In this document: positions 9,938 through 22,975 of the stretch, piece after piece
How the letters are laid out: each line of letters starts with the position of its first letter
Numbering within the stretch: position 1 is the stretch's first letter
Source: Streptomyces sp. DT2A-34
Lineage (GTDB): Bacteria > Actinomycetota > Actinomycetes > Streptomycetales > Streptomycetaceae
Direction: 5' to 3'
Length of the DNA stretch: 64,000 nt
Assembly: GCF_030499515.1 (NCBI RefSeq)
Contig: NZ_JASTWJ010000001.1
Coordinates: 1,550,001 to 1,614,000, forward strand
The notes under the pieces: model-generated
Seen by the model: only the letters and a program-made list of their open reading frames with translations
The model's database searches: none
What the model was told of the DNA's origin: nothing
Program-made: the position numbers and the translations under genes

Positions 9938-10543
9938 ATGGCGGCACGACGCATCAGACCCAGCCTCTACATCTCCGTCGACATCGAGGCCGACGGCCCG
10001 ATCCCGGGGCCGTACTCGATGCTGAGCCTCGGCGCGGCGGTCGCGGGAGTGCAGGACGCGGACGGATTCACGGCGGCCGACCCGGAGCAGCACACCTTCT
10101 ACCGCGAACTCCGCCCGATCAGCGAGGAGTTCGTCCCCGAGGCGCTGGCCGTGAGCGGACTCGACCGCGAGCGCCTCGGCAAGGAGGGCCTCGACCCCGC
10201 CCTGGCACTCGCACAGTTCACGCGCTGGGTGCGCGAGGTCCGCGGCGACGCGCAGCCGGTGATGTGCGGCTACCCGGCGTCGTACGACTGGACGTTCCTG
10301 TACTGGTACTTGATCCGCTTCACCGGAGCGAGCCCCTTCGGCCACTCCGGCTGCCTGGACATGAAGACGCTGTACGCCACCAAGGCCGGGCTGCCCCTGC
10401 GGGCCGTCGCCAAGGGCACCATGCCGCGCGAGCTGCTGTCGAGGCGCCGCCACACGCACCATGCGCTGGACGACGCCATCGAGCAGGCCGAGCTGTTCGC
10501 CAACCTCATGGCGTGGCGGGGGCCCGGGTCGCCGTCCCGGTGA
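9938..10543 (+). CDS. 3'-5' exonuclease, DnaQ-like (DEDDh)
   Basis: This 201-residue protein shows the DEDDh exonuclease motifs: Asp15 and Glu17 in SVDIEADG (Exo I), an Asp in the YDWTFLYWY region (Exo II), and His/Asp in HHALDDAIEQAELF (Exo III). It is expected to remove nucleotides from 3' ends of DNA or RNA with two metal ions. The first ATG is used. Its last 38 bases overlap the 3' end of the convergent permease gene (10506-11912), an unusual tail-to-tail overlap. Confidence 0.85.
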   Translation: MAARRIRPSLYISVDIEADGPIPGPYSMLSLGAAVAGVQDADGFTAADPEQHTFYRELRPISEEFVPEALAVSGLDRERLGKEGLDPALALAQFTRWVREVRGDAQPVMCGYPASYDWTFLYWYLIRFTGASPFGHSGCLDMKTLYATKAGLPLRAVAKGTMPRELLSRRRHTHHALDDAIEQAELFANLMAWRGPGSPSR

Positions 10544-11912
10544 TCTCCTCCCCCGCCTCCATCGGGTGGGTCACGTCCTGGGCGTCCCGGCCGCCACTGC
10601 CGAGGTGGTTGAAGACCAGGTTCAGCAGGACCGCCGCCACACAGCCGGTCGAGATGCCGGAGTCGAGGACGATCCGCACCGTCTCCGGGAAGGCGTGATA
10701 GAACTCCGGCGCCGTGATGGGGACGATGCCGACGGCCAGCGAGACGGCGACGATCAGTACGTTGTTGTCCTTGTCGAGGCCGGCCCGGACCAGGGTCTGG
10801 ATGCCGCTCGCGGCGACCGAGCCGAAGAGGACGACACCCGCGCCGCCGAGCACCGGGCGCGGTACGACCGCGATGAGCGACGCCGCCATCGGGCACAGGC
10901 CCATCAGGACGAGGAAGCCGCCGCCGACCGCGACGACGTACCGGCTGCGGATCTTCGTCATGGCCACCAGGCCGATGTTCTGCGCGAAGGCGCTGCACAT
11001 GAAGCCGTTGAAGAGCGGGCTGATCGCCGAGCCGAGGGTGTCGGCGCGCAGGCCGGCCGCGATGGTCTTCTCGTCCGCCGGGCGCTCGACGATCTCGCCC
11101 AGCGCCAGCATGTCGGCCGTCGATTCGGTCATCGAGACCACCATGACCACGCACAGCGAGATGATCGCGGCGAGCTGGAACTGCGGGACGCCGAAGTGGA
11201 ACGGGGTCGGGAAGCCGATGACGTCGGCGTCCGCGACGGGGCCGAAGTCCGTGGCACCGAACGGGATCGCGATCAGCGTGCCGACGACCAGGCCGAGGAG
11301 TACGGCGATCTGCTTGACGAAGCCCCTGGTGAAGCGGCGCAGGAGCAGGACGATCAGCAGGGTTCCGGCCGCGAGGCCCAGGTTCGTCGCCGAACCGTAG
11401 TCGTGCGCCGCGGGGTCGGGCCCTTGTGCCCAGCCGAAGGCGACCGGGAGGAGGGATATGCCGATCAGGGTGATGACCGTACCCGTGACCACCGGTGGGA
11501 AGAAGCGGACCGCCTTGCTGAAGAAGGGGGCCGCCAGGAAGCCGAGGACTCCGGCGACGATGACCGCGCCGAAGATGATCGGCAGGGCGTCGGACTTGTC
11601 CTCGGTGGAGGCGACGACCGCGGTCATGGGCGCGACGCCGGCGAAGGTGACGCCGTTGACGAACGGCAGCCGGGCGCCGATCTTCCAGATGCCGAGTGTC
11701 TGGAGGAAGGTGGCGAGGCCCGCGGTGAACAGGCAGGCGCCGGTGAGGAAGGTCAGGTCGGTGGCGGAGAGGCCTATGGCCGCGCCGACGATCAGGGGTG
11801 GGGCGACGACTCCCGCGTACATGGCGGCCACGTGTTGCAGACCGGTGGTCGCCATTTTCAGGGCGGGGAGTTTCTCGTCGACGGGGTGGGGCGAAACGGG
11901 CTGGGCGGACAC
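10506..11912 (-). CDS. Xanthine/urate permease (NCS2 family)
   Basis: This 468-residue protein has about 12-14 membrane helices. The GTG start at 11912 is chosen because GGAGGAG lies just upstream, and the protein then begins SAQPVSPHPVDEKL. Family marks include LQHVAAMYAGVVAPPLIVG in helix 1, the FNGFMCSAFAQNIGLVAMT signature of NCS2 helix 10 and MTESTADMLALGEI with the substrate-binding Glu. NCS2 members import uracil, xanthine or urate with a proton or sodium. Lying downstream of 8-oxoguanine deaminase and urate oxidase, it most likely takes up xanthine or urate. Confidence 0.9.
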   Translation of the reverse strand: MSAQPVSPHPVDEKLPALKMATTGLQHVAAMYAGVVAPPLIVGAAIGLSATDLTFLTGACLFTAGLATFLQTLGIWKIGARLPFVNGVTFAGVAPMTAVVASTEDKSDALPIIFGAVIVAGVLGFLAAPFFSKAVRFFPPVVTGTVITLIGISLLPVAFGWAQGPDPAAHDYGSATNLGLAAGTLLIVLLLRRFTRGFVKQIAVLLGLVVGTLIAIPFGATDFGPVADADVIGFPTPFHFGVPQFQLAAIISLCVVMVVSMTESTADMLALGEIVERPADEKTIAAGLRADTLGSAISPLFNGFMCSAFAQNIGLVAMTKIRSRYVVAVGGGFLVLMGLCPMAASLIAVVPRPVLGGAGVVLFGSVAASGIQTLVRAGLDKDNNVLIVAVSLAVGIVPITAPEFYHAFPETVRIVLDSGISTGCVAAVLLNLVFNHLGSGGRDAQDVTHPMEAGEEITGTATRAPATP

Positions 11913-12094
11913 TGCGGCTCTCCTCCGGTTGGGTAACACGTCGGCTCTGACGTGGGTGTCATGGAGGTGGTGCGAGTGGTCGTGCGGGACCGGGGACGGG
12001 CCCGTTCTGGGGGAAACGGAGACCGTTCCGGGGCGCACGCGTTCACGCGCGCCCCGGAGACGGCCGCCATGGACCCCGCTCGGGTCCACGGCCA

Positions 12095-12122
12095 CCGGTC
12101 GGGAGCCGTCCCTCCCGACCGG
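12095..12122 (-). terminator. Hairpin terminator after the 8-oxoguanine deaminase gene
   Basis: A perfect 11-bp inverted repeat (CCGGTCGGGAG / CTCCCGACCGG) with a 6-base loop lies 26 bp after the deaminase stop. It has no T-tract, as is usual in Streptomyces. It separates the deaminase from the permease, which therefore probably has its own promoter in 11913-12094. Confidence 0.6.
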
Positions 12123-12147: not shown

Positions 12148-13527
12148 TCAGGCCTGCGCCGCGATCCTCGCCAGGCGCTGGGCCTCTTCCCGCGTCGAAC
12201 GGGCGATGGCGTCCTCGTCGGCCGTGAGCAGCCGCCCGTCCTCGACGATCTGCCGGCCGTTCACGAACGATGCCGTGACCGGGGCCGCCGCGCCGAAGAC
12301 CAGCGCGGTCACCGGGTCGGCGATGGAGGCGTGGGCGAGGGTGTCCAGCTTCCACAGCACGAGGTCGGCCAGCTTGCCGGGCTCCAGTGAGCCGATCTCG
12401 CGCGCGCGGCCGAGGACCTGGGCGCCGCCGTACGTCCCGAGGCGCAGCGCCTGCCGGGCGTTCAGGGCGGCCTCGCGGTGGGCGCCGAGGCGGTTGATGA
12501 GCAGCGCGTTGCGCAGTTCGGTGTGCAGCTCGCCGGACTCGTTGGAGGCGGTGCCGTCGACGCCGAGGCCGACCGGGACGCCTGCGGCGAGCATGTCGGG
12601 GACGCGGGCGATGCCGGCCGCGAGGCGGGCGTTGGAGGACGGGCAGTGGGCGACACCCGTCTTCGTACGGGCGAAGGCGGCGATGTCGGAGTCGTTCATG
12701 TGGACGCAGTGCGCCATCCACACGTCCTCGCCGAGCCAGCCGGTGGACTCGAAGTAGTCGGTCGGGCCCATGCCGAACAGCTCGTGGCAGAACTTCTCCT
12801 CCTCCACGGTCTCCGAGCCGTGGGTGTGCATGCGCACGCCGAGGCGGCGGGCCAGCTCGCCGCCCTGCTTGAGGAGTTCGGTGGAGATGGAGAAGGGGGA
12901 GCAGGGGGCGACGGCGACCTGGGTCATCGCGTCGAAGGAGGCGTCGTGGTGCCGCTTGACGGTCTCCTCGGTGCCGGCCAGCGCGCCTTCGAGGGTCTCG
13001 ACGGCGAAGTCCGGCGGCAGGCCGCCGTCCTTCTCGCTGCGGTCCATGGAGCCGCGGGCGAGGGTGAAGCGGACGCCCATGTCGCGGGCGGCGCCGATGA
13101 TGGCGCCGGACAGGTCGCCGGAGCCCTGGGGGTAGACGTAGTGGTGGTCCATGGCGGTGGTGACGCCGCCGCGGGCCATCATCGCCAGCGAGCCCTGGGC
13201 GGCCGAGCGCACCATCTGCTCGTCGATGCGCGCCCAGGTCGGGTAGAGGGCGACGAGCCAGTTGAACAGGTTGTGGTCCGTGGCCAGGCCCCGGGTGATC
13301 CACTGGTAGAAGTGGTGGTGGGTGTTGACCAGGCCGGGGGTGACCAGGTGCCCGGTGGCGTCGATGCGGCGTACGACGTTCTCCAGGCCCTCGGGGGCCT
13401 TGCCCGCGCCGAGCGACTCGATGCGGTTGTCCGCGATGACGATGTGGCCCGTGGCGTGCTCGGTGTCATGCGCGTCCACCGTCGCGATCGAACAGTTCTC
13501 GATGACGATGCGCTGGGCTGCTGCCAT
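12148..13527 (-). CDS. 8-oxoguanine deaminase (amidohydrolase)
   Basis: This 459-residue metal-dependent amidohydrolase starts at ATG 13527 (MAAAQRIVIENCSI), behind AGGGGCG. Metal ligands are in place: GLVNTHHHFYQW (HxH), HTHGSETVEEE, MAHCVHMND and GLGVDGTASNES with the catalytic Asp. The HHHFYQ form and the C-terminal LGTYGGAQVLGR block fit the 8-oxoguanine deaminase group (EC 3.5.4.32), which yields urate from 8-oxoguanine. That product is used by the urate oxidase encoded next, which supports the specific call. A related guanine or hydroxyatrazine-type deaminase cannot be excluded from sequence alone. Confidence 0.88.
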   Translation of the reverse strand: MAAAQRIVIENCSIATVDAHDTEHATGHIVIADNRIESLGAGKAPEGLENVVRRIDATGHLVTPGLVNTHHHFYQWITRGLATDHNLFNWLVALYPTWARIDEQMVRSAAQGSLAMMARGGVTTAMDHHYVYPQGSGDLSGAIIGAARDMGVRFTLARGSMDRSEKDGGLPPDFAVETLEGALAGTEETVKRHHDASFDAMTQVAVAPCSPFSISTELLKQGGELARRLGVRMHTHGSETVEEEKFCHELFGMGPTDYFESTGWLGEDVWMAHCVHMNDSDIAAFARTKTGVAHCPSSNARLAAGIARVPDMLAAGVPVGLGVDGTASNESGELHTELRNALLINRLGAHREAALNARQALRLGTYGGAQVLGRAREIGSLEPGKLADLVLWKLDTLAHASIADPVTALVFGAAAPVTASFVNGRQIVEDGRLLTADEDAIARSTREEAQRLARIAAQA

Positions 13528-13660
13528 GGTTCGCCCCTTTTTCACGGGTGTTGTGCTGAATGGAGAGGGCACGGCAGGACCCTGGGAGTTTTGAGTGCCG
13601 TGACCGGGAAGGCGGGTTCCCCGGCCACGGGTGCCGAAAGGGGATGGATCAGAGGATGGA

Positions 13661-14584
13661 TCAGAGGTTGGTGAGGTCCATGGGGATCTTCGCCTCGCAG
13701 CCGTCCCGCAGGATGGTGGCCTCGATCAGGCCGTAGGGGCGGTCGGCGGCGAAGTACACCTCGTTGTCGTTCTTCAGCCCGAACGGCTCCAGGTCCACCA
13801 GGAAGTGGTGCTTGTTCGGGAGGGAGAAGCGGACCTCGTCTATCTCGCTGCGGTTGTTGATGATGCGCGAGCCCATTTGGTAGAGGGTCTGCTGCAGCGA
13901 CAGCGAGTAGGTCTCGGCGAAGGCCTGGAGCATGTGCTTCTTGGTCTGCTCGTAGGACTTCTCCCAGTTGGGCATCCGCTGCTCGTCGTCGGTCCAGTTG
14001 AACCGCCAGCGACCGGAGACCTGGGTGGCCAGGATGCGGTCGTAGGCCTCCTTCAGCGTCGTGTACTTGTCCTTGACGTAGCCCCAGAACTCGGAGTTCG
14101 TCGAGTTCATCACGACGAGGTCCTTGAGGCCGGAGACGACCTCCCACTTCTCACCGTCGTAGGTGATCTGCGTGAGCCGTGTCTCCTGGCCCTGGCGGAC
14201 GAAGGAGTGCTTGACCTCGTCGGAGCCGATGAACTGCGAGTTGGCGTCGGAGGCCTCGATCCGCTCCCAGGCGTACTCCTCGATGCGGATCCGGGCCTGG
14301 TGGATCGGCTCCTGCGAGGTGACGAAGTGACGGGCGAGGTGGATGCCGAACTGCTCGGCGGACTCGATGCCGTACTCCTTGGCGAACGCGTACACCGTGT
14401 TCTTGGTGGTGTCGGTCGGCAGGACGTTGGCGTTCGAGCCGGAGTAGTGGACCTCGTCCATGTCGCCGGAGAGCGCGACGGATACGTTCAGGTCCTTGAT
14501 GTGGTGGGTGGCGCCGTCCCGCGTGATCTTTACGACTCGGTTCTCGGCCTTGCCGTACTGGTTCTGTCCCAGGATCGTGGGCAT
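13661..14584 (-). CDS. Urate oxidase (uricase)
   Basis: This 307-residue protein has the full tandem T-fold uricase: MPTILGQNQYGKAENRVVKI with the catalytic Lys12, LPTDTTKNTVYAFAKEYGI with the catalytic Thr, and HHFLVDLEPFGLKNDNEVYF near the end. It oxidises urate to 5-hydroxyisourate and releases H2O2, without a cofactor. The ATG at 14584 is preceded by GGGAG. The stop region carries a small 12-bp tandem duplication (about 13644-13667) so that the TGATCCATCCTC unit occurs twice. It is third in a tight minus-strand operon behind OHCU decarboxylase and HIU hydrolase. Confidence 0.95.
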   Translation of the reverse strand: MPTILGQNQYGKAENRVVKITRDGATHHIKDLNVSVALSGDMDEVHYSGSNANVLPTDTTKNTVYAFAKEYGIESAEQFGIHLARHFVTSQEPIHQARIRIEEYAWERIEASDANSQFIGSDEVKHSFVRQGQETRLTQITYDGEKWEVVSGLKDLVVMNSTNSEFWGYVKDKYTTLKEAYDRILATQVSGRWRFNWTDDEQRMPNWEKSYEQTKKHMLQAFAETYSLSLQQTLYQMGSRIINNRSEIDEVRFSLPNKHHFLVDLEPFGLKNDNEVYFAADRPYGLIEATILRDGCEAKIPMDLTNL

Positions 14585-14589
14585 GTCTG

Positions 14590-14982
14590 CTAGCTCCCTC
14601 GGTAAACGGAGTAGCCGAACGGGTTGAGCAGCAGCGGCACGTGGTAGTGCTCCCCGGGCTGCACGGCGAAGGTGATCGCCACCTCGGGGAAGAACACGGC
14701 ACCGCTGTCCCGATTCGCGGGGGCGTCCTGCTGCGCATCGGCTTGCTTCTTCTCGAAATACGGCTCCACCGCGAAGTCGAGCCGTACGTGTGTGGTCCCC
14801 TCCGGCAGCGCCGGGAGGTCCTTGCACCGCCCGTCCGCGTCGGTCGCGGAGCCGCCGAGTGCCTGCCAGTCCGCATCCCTGCCCGAGCGGGCGGAGAGCT
14901 GGACGGCGACGTCCTCGGCGGGGCGGCCGATGCTGGTGTCCAGGATGTGCGTGGACACGGAGGCGGTGGTGCTGGTGCTCAT
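14590..14982 (-). CDS. 5-hydroxyisourate hydrolase (HIUase, transthyretin-like)
   Basis: At 130 residues, this is a full-length transthyretin-like hydrolase. It has the N-terminal STHILDTSIGRPAEDV box with a catalytic His, a central HVRLDFAVEPYF strand and the C-terminal signature ending YRGS, which separates HIUase from transthyretin. It converts 5-hydroxyisourate to OHCU. The gene begins 2 bp after the OHCU decarboxylase stop and ends 5 bp before the uricase start, so all three are clearly one transcript. Confidence 0.95.
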   Translation of the reverse strand: MSTSTTASVSTHILDTSIGRPAEDVAVQLSARSGRDADWQALGGSATDADGRCKDLPALPEGTTHVRLDFAVEPYFEKKQADAQQDAPANRDSGAVFFPEVAITFAVQPGEHYHVPLLLNPFGYSVYRGS

Positions 14983-14984
14983 GG

Positions 14985-15524
14985 TCAGGCGTCCTCTTCG
15001 GTCTTCCTCGAAGATCGGTCTTCGTCGACGAGGCGGGCGAGCCGGATACGGTTGATCTTGCCCAGCTCGGCGCGGACGATCTCCCGCTCCTGCTCCGGCG
15101 AGTTCCCGATCCGTTCCTTGACCGCGTCGCGCATCTGCTCGCCGGTCCGGCCGGTGGCGCAGATCAGGAAGACATGGCCGAACTTGTCCTGGTAGGCCAG
15201 GTTGAGTTCGAGCATCTCCGCCTTGAGCTCCTCGGAGGCGCCGGCCATGCCGCGCTGTTCCCGGGCCGAGGTCGGATCGCCCGGCTTGGGGCGGCCGATC
15301 GGCGGGTGGCCGGCCATCGCCTCGGCCAGGTCCTCGGCGGTCAGCTCGGCCATGGCGGCGTCACTGGCGGCGTAGAGGTCGTCGGCGGTGGCGTAGGGAC
15401 GGGCGGCGAGCAGCCGCTTCGCCCACGCCGTGGCGGCGCACGCCTCATGGAGGGCGGCGTGGGCCGCGTGCTCCTCCAGGGCGTTGAACCGGGCCAGGCC
15501 CGAGGGCGTGGAATTCGACGTCAC
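14985..15524 (-). CDS. OHCU decarboxylase
   Basis: This 179-residue protein is the third enzyme of the uricolytic route: it decarboxylates 2-oxo-4-hydroxy-4-carboxy-5-ureidoimidazoline to S-allantoin. Visible marks are FNALEEHAAHAALHEACAA, the catalytic His in MAGHPPIGRPKPGD, and EMLELNLAYQDKFGHVFLIC followed by ATGRT. It is the first gene of the urate operon; the promoter and a perfect palindrome lie 77-91 bp upstream. The order here is decarboxylase, hydrolase, oxidase, deaminase, permease. Confidence 0.94.
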   Translation of the reverse strand: MTSNSTPSGLARFNALEEHAAHAALHEACAATAWAKRLLAARPYATADDLYAASDAAMAELTAEDLAEAMAGHPPIGRPKPGDPTSAREQRGMAGASEELKAEMLELNLAYQDKFGHVFLICATGRTGEQMRDAVKERIGNSPEQEREIVRAELGKINRIRLARLVDEDRSSRKTEEDA

Positions 15525-15600
15525 GGGAGCCTCCGTGGCCGCGAAGGGCCTTCGTACTGAACGGGCGTGCCGATAGCTAACGCCCTACGACGACGAGACG

Positions 15601-15615
15601 TCAACACTTTGTTGA
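15601..15615 (-). promoter_or_regulatory. Operator TCAACA-N3-TGTTGA in the urate operon promoter
   Basis: TCAACACTTTGTTGA is a perfect 6-3-6 palindrome. On the minus strand it runs into TTGACG, which with 18 bases of spacing is followed by TTAGCT, so it overlaps the likely -35 box. The same palindrome with the same promoter layout precedes the catalase gene (18389-18403). The rest of 15525-15647 holds no gene. Confidence 0.75.
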
Positions 15616-15647
15616 AAATTCGCGGTAACGAAACCGGACGGGACGCC

Positions 15648-16016
15648 TCAGGCGCCCTTCTCACGGTTGAGGTAGTTGTAGACCGTGAAGCGGCTCACCC
15701 CGAGCGCGCTCGCCACCGTCTCCACACCGTGCCGCACGGAGAAGGCGCCGCGCGCCTCGAGTATCCGTACGACCTCCTGCTTGGCCTTGCGGTCCAGGTC
15801 CGCCAGCGGCTTACCCTTCCTGCGCTCCATGGCCGCCAGGATGTGATCCAGGGAGTCGGCCAGCTGAGGCAGGCGTACGGCGACGACGTCGACCCCTTCC
15901 CAGGAGAGCACGACGTCCTCGGGGCCGGCCTCGTCCGGCGGGAGAATCTCGCCGCCCATGGCGTCGACCAGCGGCTTCACGGCCGCGATGAAGGGCTCGT
16001 CCCCGGTACCGGTCAC
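15648..16016 (-). CDS. Small helix-turn-helix protein of the urate locus
   Basis: This 122-residue protein has an acidic N-terminal half (residues 1-50), a basic helix RRKGKPLADLDRKAKQEVVR, and a C-terminal HTH: GVETVASALGVSRFTVYNYL, ending NREKGA. The last part is a clear recognition helix of the HTH_20 / DauR-like kind. Its ATG overlaps the stop of the upstream 16013-16264 gene. Position and conservation suggest it controls the urate genes, and the palindrome at 15601 lies just downstream, but which operator it binds is not known from the sequence. Confidence 0.8.
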   Translation of the reverse strand: MTGTGDEPFIAAVKPLVDAMGGEILPPDEAGPEDVVLSWEGVDVVAVRLPQLADSLDHILAAMERRKGKPLADLDRKAKQEVVRILEARGAFSVRHGVETVASALGVSRFTVYNYLNREKGA

Positions 16017-16264
16017 TCCTCGCCCTCCCCGACCACGTTGAGCTGAAGCGAGATCCGGGTGGCACCGGCCTCCAGCGACTTGCGCAGCAGGGCGTCCAAG
16101 GCGGTGAGCACGGCGTCGGCGCCCCCCTCGGCCGTGTTGCCGAACGGACCGACGTCCACCGCGTCGAGCTCGGCCGCCTCGATGACCTCGCGGGCCACCA
16201 GCGCGTGCGCGGGCGCCTCGTCGAGGTCGAAGGGCTCGGTCGTGAACTCCACTCTCAATCGCAC
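16013..16264 (-). CDS. Small MTH1187/thiamine-binding-like protein
   Basis: At 83 residues this small alpha/beta protein has the layout of the MTH1187 (YqgV-like, 'thiamine-binding') fold: VEFTTEPFDLDEAPAHALVA, then DVGPFGNTAEGGADAVLTAL in the place of the usual P-x-G-T-x-I-E-G-x-x-D box, and LEAGATRISLQLNV. The family resemblance is moderate. Homologues bind a small heterocycle, so a purine or urate-derived ligand is an attractive guess. It is translationally coupled to the HTH gene and reads away from hyi; the divergent gap holds the hyi promoter. Confidence 0.6.
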   Translation of the reverse strand: MRLRVEFTTEPFDLDEAPAHALVAREVIEAAELDAVDVGPFGNTAEGGADAVLTALDALLRKSLEAGATRISLQLNVVGEGEE

Positions 16265-16306
16265 GCGCTCAACCTAACGCCAGGTGACGCTTTCCGCCGA
16301 CCCCTC

Positions 16307-16371
16307 TTGACAAGCTTCGCCACACGGCGGCAATCTTCCAGTAGGCAGAAACTAACTTCCGCAATATGGAA
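16307..16371 (+). promoter_or_regulatory. hyi promoter with IclR-type operator
   Basis: A -35 box TTGACA (16307-16312) is followed after 18 bases by CAATCT (16331-16336). The imperfect palindrome TTCCGCAATATGGAA (16357-16371) lies at or just after the expected transcription start, a repressor position. On the gcl strand, the gcl promoter region has TTCCGCGATACGGAA (22849-22835), identical at 13 of 15 bases. Confidence 0.7.
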
Positions 16372-16400
16372 TCTCGACAACGGAAGGGAGCGTCGGCGAC

Positions 16401-17258
16401 ATGCCAGGTTTTGAATGGGACACAGCCGCAGAGCAGCGCTTCAACGTCAACCTGTCGATCCTCTTCACGGAACTCCCGCTCCTGGAGCGCCCCGCGGCCG
16501 CCGCCGCGGCCGGCTTCACCGCGGTCGAGCTGTGGTGGCCCTGGGTCGACTCCCCCACCCCCGAGCAGTCCGAGCTCGGCGCCCTGAAGAAGGCGATCGA
16601 GGACGCGGGCGTCCAGCTCACCGGGCTGAACTTCTACGCCGGTCAGCTGCCCGGCCCCGACCGGGGCGCCCTGTCGGTCCCGGGCGAGGAGTCGGAGAGG
16701 TTCCGCGCCAACATCGACGTGGCCGCCGACTTCGCCCAGTCGCTGGGCTGCCGCGCGCTCAACGCCCTGTACGGCAACCGCGTCGAAGGCGTGGACCCGG
16801 CCGAGCAGGACGCGCTCGCGCTGGAGAACCTGGTCCTCGCGGCCCGGGCGGCCGACCGGATCGGCGCGATCCTTCTCATCGAGGCGCTGAACAAGCCGGA
16901 GTCGCCGCTGTACCCGCTGGTGTCCGCACCGGCCGCCGTCGGCATCGTCGACAAGGTCAACGAGGCGACAGGACTGGGCAACGCGAAGTTCCTCATGGAC
17001 CTTTACCACCTGTCCATGAACGGCGAGGACCTGCCCTCGGTGATCGAGCAGTACGCCGCGAAGACCGGCCACGTGCAGATCGCCGACAACCCGGGCCGCG
17101 GCGCGCCCGGCACGGGGACGCTGCCGCTGGAGGAGCTGCTCGACCAGCTGAGGAAGGCGGGCTACGAGGGCTGGGTCGGCCTGGAGTACAAGCCGGGCGA
17201 CCGCCCGAGCGCGGAGGCCTTCGACTGGCTGCCGGTGGAGCAGCGCGCCGCCCGCTGA
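16401..17258 (+). CDS. hyi: Hydroxypyruvate isomerase
   Basis: This 285-residue TIM-barrel enzyme belongs to the xylose isomerase-like family. Marks are RFNVNLSILFTELPLLERPA at the start, AVELWWPW (metal-side Glu region), the conserved LLIEALNK with a metal-binding Glu, KFLMDLYHLSMNGED with metal Asp and His, GHVQIADNPGRGAPGTG and GLEYKPG. It interconverts hydroxypyruvate and tartronate semialdehyde in glyoxylate use. The TSR gene glxR follows by 145 bp and likely shares the transcript. Confidence 0.92.
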   Translation: MPGFEWDTAAEQRFNVNLSILFTELPLLERPAAAAAAGFTAVELWWPWVDSPTPEQSELGALKKAIEDAGVQLTGLNFYAGQLPGPDRGALSVPGEESERFRANIDVAADFAQSLGCRALNALYGNRVEGVDPAEQDALALENLVLAARAADRIGAILLIEALNKPESPLYPLVSAPAAVGIVDKVNEATGLGNAKFLMDLYHLSMNGEDLPSVIEQYAAKTGHVQIADNPGRGAPGTGTLPLEELLDQLRKAGYEGWVGLEYKPGDRPSAEAFDWLPVEQRAAR

Positions 17259-17266
17259 CGGCACCG

Positions 17267-17343
17267 TCCCCTGGGGGCTGCCTCCCCCAGACCCCCGCTT
17301 CGGCCCTGAACGGGCCTCGTCCTCAAACGCCGGACGGGCTGAT
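17267..17343 (+). repeat. Streptomyces-type intergenic repeat, copy A
   Basis: The stretch with CTGGGGGCTGCC-CCCCCAG and CTTCGGCCCTGAACGGGCCT matches 23755-23809 closely (about 45 of 55 bases). It contains two hairpins, GGGGGCTG/CCCCCAG-type and GGCCCTGAACGGGCC-type. Such elements are common between genes of Streptomyces genomes. Here it lies between hyi and glxR. Confidence 0.7.
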
Positions 17344-17403
17344 CGATGCAGGCCGGCGCCAATTCGTAGACGTACCACAGCAGTTCAGAGAGGTACCCCC
17401 ATC

Positions 17404-18294
17404 ATGAGCAACCTCCCCAAGATCGCCTGGATAGGCCTCGGCATCATGGGCTCCCCCATGTCCGAGAACCTGATCAAGGCGGGTTACCAGGTCACCGGCT
17501 TCACGCTGGAGCAGGACAAGCTGGACCGCCTGGCCGCGGCCGGCGGCACCGCCGCGTCCTCCATCGCCGAGGCCGTGCGCGACGCCGACGTGGTCATCAC
17601 GATGGTGCCTGCCTCCCCGCAGGTCGAGGCCATCTCCTACGGCCCCGACGGCATCCTGGAGAACGCGAAGTCCGGCGCGCTGCTGATCGACATGTCCTCG
17701 ATCACCCCGCAGACCTCGGTCGACCTGGCGAAGGCCGCCAAGGGCAAGGGAATCAGGGTCCTGGACGCCCCCGTGTCCGGCGGTGAGGCCGGTGCCATCG
17801 AGGCCGTACTGTCGATCATGGTCGGCGGTGAGCAGGCCGACTTCGACACCGCCAAGCCGATTCTCGAGGCCCTCGGGAAGACCATCGTGCTGTGCGGCCC
17901 GCACGGCTCGGGTCAGACCGTGAAGGCGGCCAACCAGCTGATCGTCGCCGTGAACATCCAGGCGTGCGCCGAGGCCGTGGTCTTCCTGGAGAGGTCCGGC
18001 GTGGACCTGACGGCGGCGCTGGACGTCCTGGGCGGCGGCCTGGCCGGCTCGACCGTGCTGACGCGGAAGAAGGACAACTTCCTGAACCGGGACTTCAAGC
18101 CCGGCTTCCGTATCGACCTGCACCACAAGGACATGGGCATCGTCACGGACGCCGCACGCAACGTCGGCGCCGCCCTGCCCGTCGGTGCCGTGGTCGCCCA
18201 GCTGGTCGCCTCCCTGCGCGCGCAGGGCGACGGCGGCCTGGACCACTCGGCCCTGCTGCGGGCCGTGGAGCGCCTCTCCGGCGCCCAGGCCTGA
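17404..18294 (+). CDS. glxR: 2-hydroxy-3-oxopropionate (tartronate semialdehyde) reductase
   Basis: This 296-residue beta-hydroxyacid dehydrogenase has the NAD(P)-binding GLGIMGSPMSENLIKAGY, the substrate box DAPVSGGEAGAIEA, the catalytic Lys in TVKAANQLIVAVN and the C-terminal FRIDLHHKDMGIV. It reduces tartronate semialdehyde, the Gcl product, to glycerate. AGAGAGG-type sequence precedes the ATG. The gene follows hyi on the same strand, and catalase comes next. An 11-bp inverted repeat with a long loop (18308-18318 / 18359-18369) lies after its stop and may help end transcription. Confidence 0.93.
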   Translation: MSNLPKIAWIGLGIMGSPMSENLIKAGYQVTGFTLEQDKLDRLAAAGGTAASSIAEAVRDADVVITMVPASPQVEAISYGPDGILENAKSGALLIDMSSITPQTSVDLAKAAKGKGIRVLDAPVSGGEAGAIEAVLSIMVGGEQADFDTAKPILEALGKTIVLCGPHGSGQTVKAANQLIVAVNIQACAEAVVFLERSGVDLTAALDVLGGGLAGSTVLTRKKDNFLNRDFKPGFRIDLHHKDMGIVTDAARNVGAALPVGAVVAQLVASLRAQGDGGLDHSALLRAVERLSGAQA

Positions 18295-18388
18295 CCCACC
18301 CCGAGACTTCCGGGCGGCGTCTTCGCTGACATCTGTCCTGTCGCGCCCAGGCGGGGAGGCCGCCCGGAATCCACCGCCGCAAACAACT

Positions 18389-18429
18389 TCAACAAACTGT
18401 TGACGTTCAGATTCCCTCACTTCTAGGCT
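18389..18429 (+). promoter_or_regulatory. Catalase promoter with TCAACA-N3-TGTTGA operator
   Basis: TCAACAAACTGTTGA (18389-18403) is a perfect 6-3-6 palindrome overlapping the -35 box TTGACG (18400-18405). After 18 bases comes TAGGCT (18424-18429). The extended 18-base stretch TTCAACAAACTGTTGACG matches the urate-operon promoter at 17 positions and sits at a similar distance from the start codon (92 bp against 77 bp). Confidence 0.75.
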
Positions 18430-18435
18430 CCACCA

Positions 18436-18455
18436 AGCGGAAAGAGTTTTCCGCT
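18436..18455 (+). promoter_or_regulatory. Perfect 20-bp palindrome in the catalase leader
   Basis: AGCGGAAAGAGTTTTCCGCT has 8-bp arms and a 4-base centre. It lies just downstream of the predicted -10 box of the catalase promoter, so it could be a second operator or a 5' leader hairpin. Its GCGGAA half-site also occurs in the hyi/gcl palindrome, in the opposite arrangement. Confidence 0.5.
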
Positions 18456-18494
18456 GCCACCAGCACGGAAGTGCCACCGCACGGAAGGTCCACG

Positions 18495-19952
18495 ATGTCG
18501 AAGCGCGTGCTCACGACCGAGGCCGGCGCCCCGGTCGCCGACAACCAGAACTCCGCCTCCGCCGGCGTCGGCGGCCCGCTCCTGCTCCAGGACCAGCACC
18601 TCCTGGAGAAGCTGGCGCGCTTCAACCGCGAGCGCATTCCGGAGCGCGTGGTGCACGCCCGGGGCTCCGGCGCGTACGGCCACTTCGAGGTGACCGACGA
18701 CGTCACCGGCTTCACCCACGCCGACTTCCTGAGCGCGGTGGGCAAGCGGACCGAGGTGTTCCTGCGCTTCTCGACCGTGGCCGACAGCCTCGGCGGTGCG
18801 GACGCGGTCCGCGACCCGCGCGGCTTCGCGGTCAAGTTCTATACGGCGGAGGGCAATTACGACCTCGTCGGGAACAACACCCCGGTGTTCTTCATCAAGG
18901 ACCCGATCAAGTTCCCGGACTTCATCCACTCGCAGAAGCGCGACCCGTTCACCGGCTGCCAGGAGCCGGACAACGTCTGGGACTTCTGGGCGCACGCCCC
19001 CGAGGCCACGCACCAGGTGACCTGGCTGATGGGCGACCGCGGCATCCCGGCGTCGTACCGCCACATGAACGGCTACGGCTCGCACACCTACCAGTGGACG
19101 AACGCCGAGGGCGAGGCCTTCTTCGTCAAGTACCACTTCAAGACGAACCAGGGCATCCGCTGCCTGAGCGCCGAACAGGGCGCCGAGCTCGCGGGCAAGG
19201 ACCCCAACTCGCACCAGACGGACCTGCTCCAGGCCATCGAGCGGGGCGTGCACCCGTCGTGGACCCTCTACGTCCAGCTCATGCCGACGGCCGAGGCGGC
19301 CGACTACCGCTTCAACCCGTTCGACCTCACCAAGGTCTGGCCACACAAGGACTACCCGCTGCGGCGCGTGGGCCGGCTGGTCCTGGACCGCAACCCGGAC
19401 AACGTCTTCGCCGAGGTCGAGCAGGCCGCGTTCTCCCCGAACAACTTCGTGCCGGGCATCGGCCCCTCCCCCGACAAGATGCTCCAGGGCCGCCTGTTCG
19501 CCTACGCGGACGCCCACCGCTACCGCCTGGGCGTCAACCACACCCAGCTCGCGGTGAACGCCCCGAAGGCGACGACCGCGCAGAACTACGGCCGCGACGG
19601 CCTCATGGCCGGCAACTCCCAGGGCCGGTACGCCAAGAACTACGAGCCGAACTCCTACGACGGCCCGGTCGAGACCGGCCGCCCGTTGTCGGCCCCGCTC
19701 GCGGTGACCGGCCACACGGGCACCCACGAGGCCCCGCTCCACACCAAGGACGACGACTTCTTCCAGGCGGGCGAGCTGTACCGCCTGATGTCCGCCGAGG
19801 AGAAGTCCCGCCTGGTCGCCAACATCGCCGGTGGCCTCTCCCAGGTCTCCCGCGACGACGTGATCGAGAAGAACCTGGCCCACTTCCACGCCGCCGACCC
19901 GGAGTACGGCAAGCGCGTGGAGGAGGCGGTCCGCGCCCTGCGCGAGGACTGA
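18495..19952 (+). CDS. katA: Monofunctional haem catalase
   Basis: This 485-residue clade-3 size catalase starts at ATG 18495 behind GGAAGG. Key residues: catalytic His54 in [16 protein letters not shown], Asn127 in [13 protein letters not shown] and the haem-ligand Tyr in [13 protein letters not shown] (about 337). It breaks down H2O2. Its promoter shares an operator with the urate operon, whose uricase makes H2O2, so this is probably the detoxifying partner of purine breakdown rather than a general stress catalase. It follows glxR with 200 bp between. Confidence 0.95.
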
Positions 19953-20959: not shown

Positions 20960-22744
<1,785 letters not shown>

Positions 22745-22834: not shown

Positions 22835-22849
22835 TTCCGTATCGCGGAA
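22835..22849 (-). promoter_or_regulatory. IclR-type operator upstream of gcl
   Basis: TTCCGTATCGCGGAA has five-base arms (TTCCG/CGGAA). Read on the gcl strand it is TTCCGCGATACGGAA, 13 of 15 bases identical to the hyi operator. Palindromes of this kind are bound by IclR-family repressors such as AllR in allantoin/glyoxylate regulons; no IclR gene is in this window. Confidence 0.7.
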
Positions 22850-22975
22850 AATGTTTTCTACTATCTGGAAGCAATGTAGGTGGGCCGGTGAAGACCGTCA
22901 AGGGGCGGACAACCGGGCCCTGCCTGGAGGACGATGGGACCGCTGTCCCGATGCGAAGCCGTCCTGGAGTGGGCC

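Follow-up and report, generated by a model that had tools for sequence, protein, structure and literature searches.

A conserved palindrome over the -35 box of uricase-operon and catalase promoters in Streptomyces, and an HTH_22 protein as its probable repressor

Regulators of the DauR/YheO type combine a PAS domain with the DNA-binding domain HTH_22, and the regulon of AllR, an IclR-family protein of Streptomyces coelicolor, was reportedly described by Navone et al. in 2015. This AllR work is cited in PMC12772271 and PMC11438217; according to further sources, AllR of E. coli is associated with an A/T-rich palindrome (PMC8222616), urate lifts HucR, a MarR-family protein of Deinococcus, off DNA (PMC5487221), and XdhR, the regulator of xdhABC in S. 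coelicolor, responds to (p)ppGpp (PMC6627660). Here we describe a 64,000-nucleotide stretch of the genome of Streptomyces sp. DT2A-34 (the window; G000:C1:1550001-1614000, GC content 71%, in a genome of 10,325,706 bases; G and L numbers denote genomes and loci), in which the promoters of a uricase operon and of a catalase gene carry the same palindrome, TCAACA-N3-TGTTGA, over the -35 box. We hold, with a probability of roughly 0.78, that a repressor consisting of the HTH_22 protein encoded beside the uricase operon, probably together with a UPF0045-like partner, would act at this palindrome on both the uricase operon and catalase.

As with HucR, the regulator gene adjoins uricase; HucR, however, is of the MarR type and has one intergenic site, whereas the present candidate combines HTH_22 with a UPF0045-like partner, and the Pfam matches of the HTH_22 protein included no MarR family (unlike HucR and PecS). 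The AllR regulon is similar in that a repressor controls a neighbouring part of the pathway, and an IclR-family gene does lie beside allantoinase-like and allantoicase genes in this genome, but the protein family and the operator are different and the uricase promoter here is without the paired box described below. The DNA-binding domain, PF13309, is that of the DauR/YheO type; unlike those proteins, the 122-aa protein gave only HTH_22 and no PAS domain in the Pfam search, the partner or fused domain being UPF0045-like instead, while three other HTH_22 matches, located on plasmids, carry the annotation of PAS-domain proteins, and their alignment is confined to residues 68-122 or to a shorter part. 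XdhR is likewise a repressor of a purine-oxidation operon, but in three genomes of a second family xanthine dehydrogenase carries the palindrome instead. Finally, proteins of the UPF0045/MTH1187-YkoF group share the N-terminal fold of the fused form of the regulator, for which the best Protein Data Bank matches were 1yqh, 1lxn, 2eky and 1vk8, with YkoF lower, and for which a profile search also hit these four entries; the difference is that here the fold is joined to HTH_22 beside urate genes. No published operator or regulator for this locus was found in an open-access literature search, which leaves prior publication elsewhere possible, and no NCBIfam model names the HTH_22 regulator. In PMC3897704, SCO6208 is listed as a putative transposase; because its number adjoins that of SCO6209 in the S. 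coelicolor uricase operon (SCO6209-6211), we infer that SCO6208 is the counterpart of the HTH_22 protein.

The palindrome was found without mismatch exactly twice in the 64 kb, at 15601-15615 and 18389-18403, and the 18-mers on the reading strand, TTCAACAAAGTGTTGACG before the uricase operon (minus) and TTCAACAAACTGTTGACG before catalase (plus), are identical in 17 of 18 positions, both sites lying where the first-pass annotation of this DNA had described a perfect palindrome shared by two promoters. In 100 dinucleotide shuffles of the window the perfect palindrome never occurred (mean 0.00), and the whole genome contains four perfect copies compared with none of a backwards-read control pattern. 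The promoter layout proposed at the same time, with the palindrome over the -35, an 18-base spacing and similar distances to the start codon, was also recovered: TTGACG overlaps the palindrome in both promoters, the spacers are 18 bases long, and the palindrome ends 76 bp before the GTG of OHCU decarboxylase (15524) and 82 bp before the ATG of catalase (18486). Two points were refined on the uricase side: OHCU decarboxylase is the first gene after the operator and uricase the third, and the -10 is weak. A -35-like hexamer lies inside the operator in the window and also in the aligned promoters; a -10-like NANNNT at a spacing of 17-19 accompanies it in 48 of 50 catalase promoters and in only 5 of 101 uricase-operon promoters. 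In six of the 50 catalase promoters (L033, L048, L073, L076, L087, L097) the main palindrome is preceded at 21-23 bp by another copy, imperfect in most cases, an arrangement that suggests cooperative binding.

To place these sites among relatives, 100 Streptomyces loci (80 named loci, from genomes with near-identical HTH_22 proteins, all Streptomyces, and 20 genomes) were scored for the palindrome at zero or one mismatch. The perfect palindrome stands before the uricase operon in all 98 loci with OHCU decarboxylase and before catalase in 45 of 46 promoters; absence from relatives had been set beforehand as the outcome that would count against a shared operator, and conservation is what was found. 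Palindromes were detected before none of 62 glyoxylate carboligase (gcl), 76 hydroxypyruvate isomerase-like (hyi) and 95 8-oxoguanine deaminase genes in these loci. A catalase gene located at another place (L214) still carries the operator, and the operator remains at the uricase operon when the HTH_22 gene is approximately 3-21 kb away (L110, L126, L171, L172, L213); as L171 and L172 belong to genomes G058 and G051, in which the first stretch was without the operon, the site is present in all 20 genomes of the sample. Among 37 uricase-operon sites from several genera, chosen as perfect palindromes, the columns free of that selection were nearly invariant (T1 97%, the two spacer A positions 97% and 100%, C17 100%, the next base G 95%), with C or G at 49% in the third spacer base, and the mean majority share was 46% in the 25 columns before the site, 58% in the 33 after it and 42% further on. 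The 17-mer TTCAACA-N3-TGTTGAA was also found before allantoinase: 16 of 20 loci have it with no more than one mismatch, two loci with two and one with three, while in one locus no site was found (gene starts in this count rest on the N-terminal match). A weak form with three mismatches was found in 8 of 12 malate synthase promoters. That the palindrome is a functional operator is, in our judgement, virtually certain.

The protein most closely linked to the operator was sought by co-occurrence. In a class-wide sample (246 genomes, 103 genera) the HTH_22 protein was found, at E values up to 1e-12, in 20 Streptomyces and in G106, a member of another family. Within a sample of a second family (59 genomes, 52 genera), HTH_22 was present in 6 genomes (E up to 1e-10) and a uricase match in 21. 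In all six genomes with HTH_22 a perfect palindrome precedes the uricase operon, whether this begins with uricase or with OHCU decarboxylase, while none of the 15 with uricase and without HTH_22 has a site at zero or one mismatch in the fetched stretch (Fisher 1.8e-5, or 8.1e-5 if the four of these 15 with an interrupted or split uricase match are dropped). Five second-family genomes without HTH_22 contain one perfect palindrome each, with other spacers and none near a uricase match. In the window's own family (61 genomes, 17 genera; 55 HTH_22-positive and six negative from six genera), the oriented 17-mer occurs in 54 of the 55 positive and none of the six negative genomes (Fisher 1.3e-7). 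Furthermore, in Tsukamurella, of the order Mycobacteriales, an HTH_22 protein 50% identical to that of the window is accompanied by the exact 18-mer between the regulator genes and a divergent uraD-uraH-pucL. The helix-turn-helix protein that the first-pass annotation had named as a candidate is thus found together with the operator in three families of actinobacteria, and we regard it as very likely that it binds there; the HTH_22 protein would be the likely binder, probably with the partner encoded by the overlapping gene. Overall, the candidate operator is conserved, stays with target genes that have moved and occurs where HTH_22 occurs.

Several further loci from these samples deserve mention. 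In G010 the HTH_22 matches come in two pieces with a one-mismatch site, which is suggestive only. G211 was considered as an independent HTH_22-negative uricase operon and was left uncounted: judged by eye, the stretch from a UPF0045-like remnant to OHCU decarboxylase is shortened and there seems to be a break in the OHCU frame. Five of the 15 uricase loci that lack HTH_22 (L229, L233, L234, L235, L238) have an AllR-like IclR gene directly before OHCU decarboxylase, as if the regulators had been swapped. In the Tsukamurella uraD promoter, TGTGATCTGAGTCACG (L244:8691-8706), which we take to be CRP-like, abuts the operator.

The regulator itself appears to be of two parts, which are two overlapping genes in Streptomyces and relatives and a single fusion in relatives of Phycicoccus, Pedococcus, Knoellia, Marmoricola and Amycolatopsis. 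Among the best 120 listed, out of 1024 homologues of the G106 protein, 114 combine UPF0045 and HTH_22 domains in a single chain, and G106 and G334, of the same genus, have both the fused protein and the operator. Fused homologues clear the PF01910 cut-off (41.2 and 40.8 bits). The small protein of the window shares 49% identity with the N-terminal domain of one fused homologue across 76 residues, and the HTH_22 protein of the window shares 61% identity with the C-terminal part of another fusion across 70 residues; RFT(V/I)YNY(L/I)N is retained in all aligned sequences, 28 fused and 21 mainly split. A structural model of one fusion (P0157; mean predicted local distance difference test score 88.3) has a UPF0045-like (MTH1187-like) fold at the N-terminus, with Foldseek matches to UPF0045-type entries at E values of 2.2e-5 to 5.5e-4, and its predicted template-modelling score of 0.49 makes the placement of the domains uncertain. 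The gene overlap in Streptomyces, together with fusion elsewhere, points to a partnership of the two proteins. At slightly better than even odds, UPF0045 plus HTH_22 constitutes a new type of purine-sensing repressor present in several actinobacterial orders, in which the UPF0045 fold was recruited to sense urate or its oxidation products and an operator over the -35 couples purine oxidation to the removal of hydrogen peroxide (H2O2).

A different kind of site, TTCC-N7-GGAA, occurs in pairs approximately 21 bp apart before hyi, gcl and allR. Scored with at most one mismatch per box in the 100 Streptomyces loci, this pair is common before hyi and gcl (Table 1), while the strict pair was found in 0 of 98 uricase-operon and 0 of 46 catalase promoters; a relaxed form, NTCC-N7-GGAA followed by TTCC, is present in 37 of the 46 catalase promoters, or in 41 of 50 once four additional loci are included. 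Judged by its position upstream of allR, gcl and hyi and by earlier work, the box presumably belongs to AllR. Approximately 74 kb upstream of the locus lie an IclR-family regulator gene, an allantoinase-like gene, allantoicase and malate synthase A. The IclR-family gene (G000:C1:1491269-1492066) adjoins the allantoinase-like and allantoicase genes and encodes clear IclR domains, its product scoring 122.5 bits with the NCBIfam AllR model NF007548 (cut-off 406) and 200.8 bits with the best model, BhcR (cut-off 350); we call it AllR-like on the ground of gene position and of earlier work on AllR. The open frame of the allantoinase-like gene (L027:9679-11018) matches allantoinase over its first ~97 residues only and seems to be interrupted in this assembly. 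Both kinds of site seem to be present in the promoters of catalase and allantoinase. The AllR-like protein was rejected as the binder of the uricase-operon palindrome, given the lack of the paired box in all 98 promoters, so that the IclR regulator suggested in the first-pass annotation is not supported for the uricase operon, whereas for catalase, judged by the relaxed box, co-control by the AllR-like protein may apply.

Genes and regulatory features of the locus are collected in Table 1; on the minus strand the order is UPF0045-like, HTH_22, operator, OHCU decarboxylase, hydroxyisourate hydrolase, urate oxidase, 8-oxoguanine deaminase and permease.

Table 1. Coordinates (window numbering), strands and supporting evidence for features of the uricase-catalase locus.
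Feature	Position	Strand	Evidence
Uricase-operon operator TTCAACAAAGTGTTGACG	15599..15616	-	includes -35-like TTGACG 15599-15604
Putative -10 of uricase operon, TTAGCT	15575..15580	-	sequence; 18 bp from -35; weak consensus match
Catalase operator TTCAACAAACTGTTGACG	18388..18405	+	includes -35-like TTGACG 18400-18405
Putative catalase -10, TAGGCT	18424..18429	+	sequence; 18 bp spacing
HTH_22 protein, 122 aa, proposed DNA-binding subunit	15648..16016	-	Pfam PF13309 E 4.4e-21, 75.1 bits vs cut-off 29.6
UPF0045/thiamine-binding-like small protein, proposed sensor subunit	16013..16264	-	overlaps HTH_22 gene by 4 bp; PF01910 20.9 bits
OHCU decarboxylase, first gene of uricase operon	14985..15524	-	PF09349; NCBIfam UraD_2
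Hydroxyisourate hydrolase	14590..14982	-	TIGR02962
Urate oxidase (uricase), H2O2 producer	13661..14593	-	TIGR03383 361.9 bits
8-Oxoguanine deaminase	12148..13572	-	NF006055 641.9 bits
Xanthine/uracil-type permease	10506..12095	-	PF00860
Paired IclR-type boxes (presumed AllR) before hyi	16336..16371	+	pair in 72/76 hyi promoters
Hydroxypyruvate isomerase-like gene (hyi)	16401-17258	+	TIGR03234 321.5 bits, just under cut-off 353.45
2-Hydroxy-3-oxopropionate reductase	between hyi and catalase operator	+	
Degenerate IclR-type box CTCC-N7-GGAA over end of catalase -10	18428..18442	+	sequence
Catalase	18486..19952	+	PF00199 E 1.7e-187
Glyoxylate carboligase (gcl)	20960-22744	-	TIGR01504 1240.4 bits
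Paired IclR-type boxes (presumed AllR) before gcl	22835..22870	-	pair in 60/62 gcl promoters

Beyond uricase and catalase, the overall pattern of sites is that expected of a regulator of purine breakdown. In three of six genomes of the second family, xanthine dehydrogenase is preceded by a site at a distance of 119-137 bp (L169, L193, L194; the one copy of the enzyme tested scored 417 bits with TIGR02963, below its cut-off of 467), and G320 (L192) has a tandem palindrome site. Other genera of the window's family have sites between allR and malate synthase (L219, L222), and one-mismatch sites near the regulator's own promoter (L219, L220, L221, L225). The perfect sites in L208, L209, L211 and L212 have no evident purine target. 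A perfect palindrome precedes an uncharacterised protein of ~430-460 aa in three genomes (L159/L228, L165, L210), and the single copy examined bears a weak resemblance to malyl-CoA lyase; in G106 another (L170:4849-4865) lies ~53 bp before a gene pair for a DUF3311 protein and a sodium:solute symporter; and in the window's own genome a two-mismatch palindrome (L226:3958-3974; G000:C1:9384457-9384473) is located 19 bp upstream of a xanthine permease gene, which may also belong to the regulon.

A number of observations weigh against control of both promoters by an HTH_22 repressor. Two of the four perfect copies in the genome are away from purine genes: one (G000:C1:2967059) is within a MarR-like coding sequence, and the other, TTCAACAATATGTTGAA (G000:C1:5082378-5082394; L030:4379-4395), stands before a gene for cytochrome bd oxidase, with a small gene on its other side. 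The former recurs within that gene in a further genome (L162), which fits coding constraint, and the spacer of the latter was absent from 18 other genomes compared; both copies were therefore set aside. The UPF0045-like protein of the window scores under the PF01910 cut-off of 24.9 bits. G379 has HTH_22 and a uricase operon and is without the operator, and the catalase of L070 (92% identical) is without the site; 40 of the 80 named loci gave no catalase match, a count that covers the fetched stretch only, and four gave partial matches only, those of L043 and L062 being a C-terminal remnant without the site. Among the 15 second-family genomes scored as negative, one (L236) has two-mismatch stretches 171 and 903 bp before OHCU decarboxylase, inside a permease gene. 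The six negative genomes of the window's family were counted irrespective of uricase and may have lost the whole cluster, and both Fisher values ignore phylogeny. In addition, PMC4991794 reports lowered expression of SCO6209-6211 during oxidative stress, with a predicted SenR site upstream of SCO6209, so that other regulators may act here; SCO6209 is not among the fragments tested there by electrophoretic mobility shift assay.

The operator could instead be a variant second site of the AllR-like IclR protein, acting as sole controller of the whole pathway. Such a role would be in keeping with the presence of the AllR-like protein in 33 of 34 Streptomyces searched, with the palindrome and the IclR-type box being neighbours upstream of allantoinase and of malate synthase, and with the relaxed box in catalase promoters. 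The two kinds of site, however, are distributed in opposite ways, the paired box being found before hyi and gcl and never before the uricase operon, and they differ in half-site and in length (17 versus 15). Moreover, G043 has an AllR-like gene and no perfect palindrome, though its OHCU decarboxylase match is only distant, and the five HTH_22-negative loci in which the AllR-like gene (50-57% identical) directly precedes OHCU decarboxylase have no palindrome. We consider sole control by this protein improbable. It is similarly unlikely that another regulator binds the operator and that the HTH_22 gene was merely inherited with the purine cluster: the gene is usually inside that cluster, and co-loss could reflect loss of the cluster, but in the 15 second-family genomes the uricase match was kept while HTH_22 and operator are both absent, and the pairing of the two holds at separations of 3-21 kb and in reversed orientation.

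If the HTH_22 protein is the binder, its action is quite likely to be repression, because the operator contains a -35-like box. Activators usually sit upstream, and the inclusion of the hexamer itself within the operator, in the window as in the aligned promoters, leaves little likelihood that HTH_22 is an activator. The palindrome might also consist of two -35-like boxes placed face to face by chance, since TGTTGAC includes the -35 box, so that promoter function by itself would preserve one arm; conservation extends, however, to the other arm and to the spacer AA, and the shuffled windows yielded nothing, which makes this an extremely remote prospect. A chance origin of the palindrome was rejected on the shuffles together with the reversed genome control.

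Under repression by the HTH_22 protein, a dimer of the HTH_22 unit would bind TTCAACA-N3-TGTTGAA, covering the -35 box and blocking RNA polymerase at both the uricase operon and catalase. A metabolite of the purine pathway (urate, hydroxyisourate or allantoin) would then bind the UPF0045-like unit and release the repressor, whereupon the uricase that makes H2O2 and the catalase that removes it would be induced together. We give an even chance to urate, or a close derivative of it, being the ligand that the UPF0045-like unit senses. The AllR-like IclR protein, via its separate pairs of TTCC-N7-GGAA boxes, would presumably control the later glyoxylate steps. Joint control of uricase and catalase, which the first-pass annotation had proposed on the ground that one enzyme produces H2O2 and the other removes it, is supported by the conserved shared operator.

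These results would provide a likely target, operator and regulon for a regulator that is common in Streptomyces and its relatives, having been found in 59 of 61 genomes in one sample and 55 of 61 in another. A single operator would tie an H2O2-making step to the detoxifying enzyme, and a role in gene regulation is suggested for the UPF0045 fold. If urate is the ligand, the system would be a urate-responsive switch unrelated to HucR, with possible use as a biosensor.

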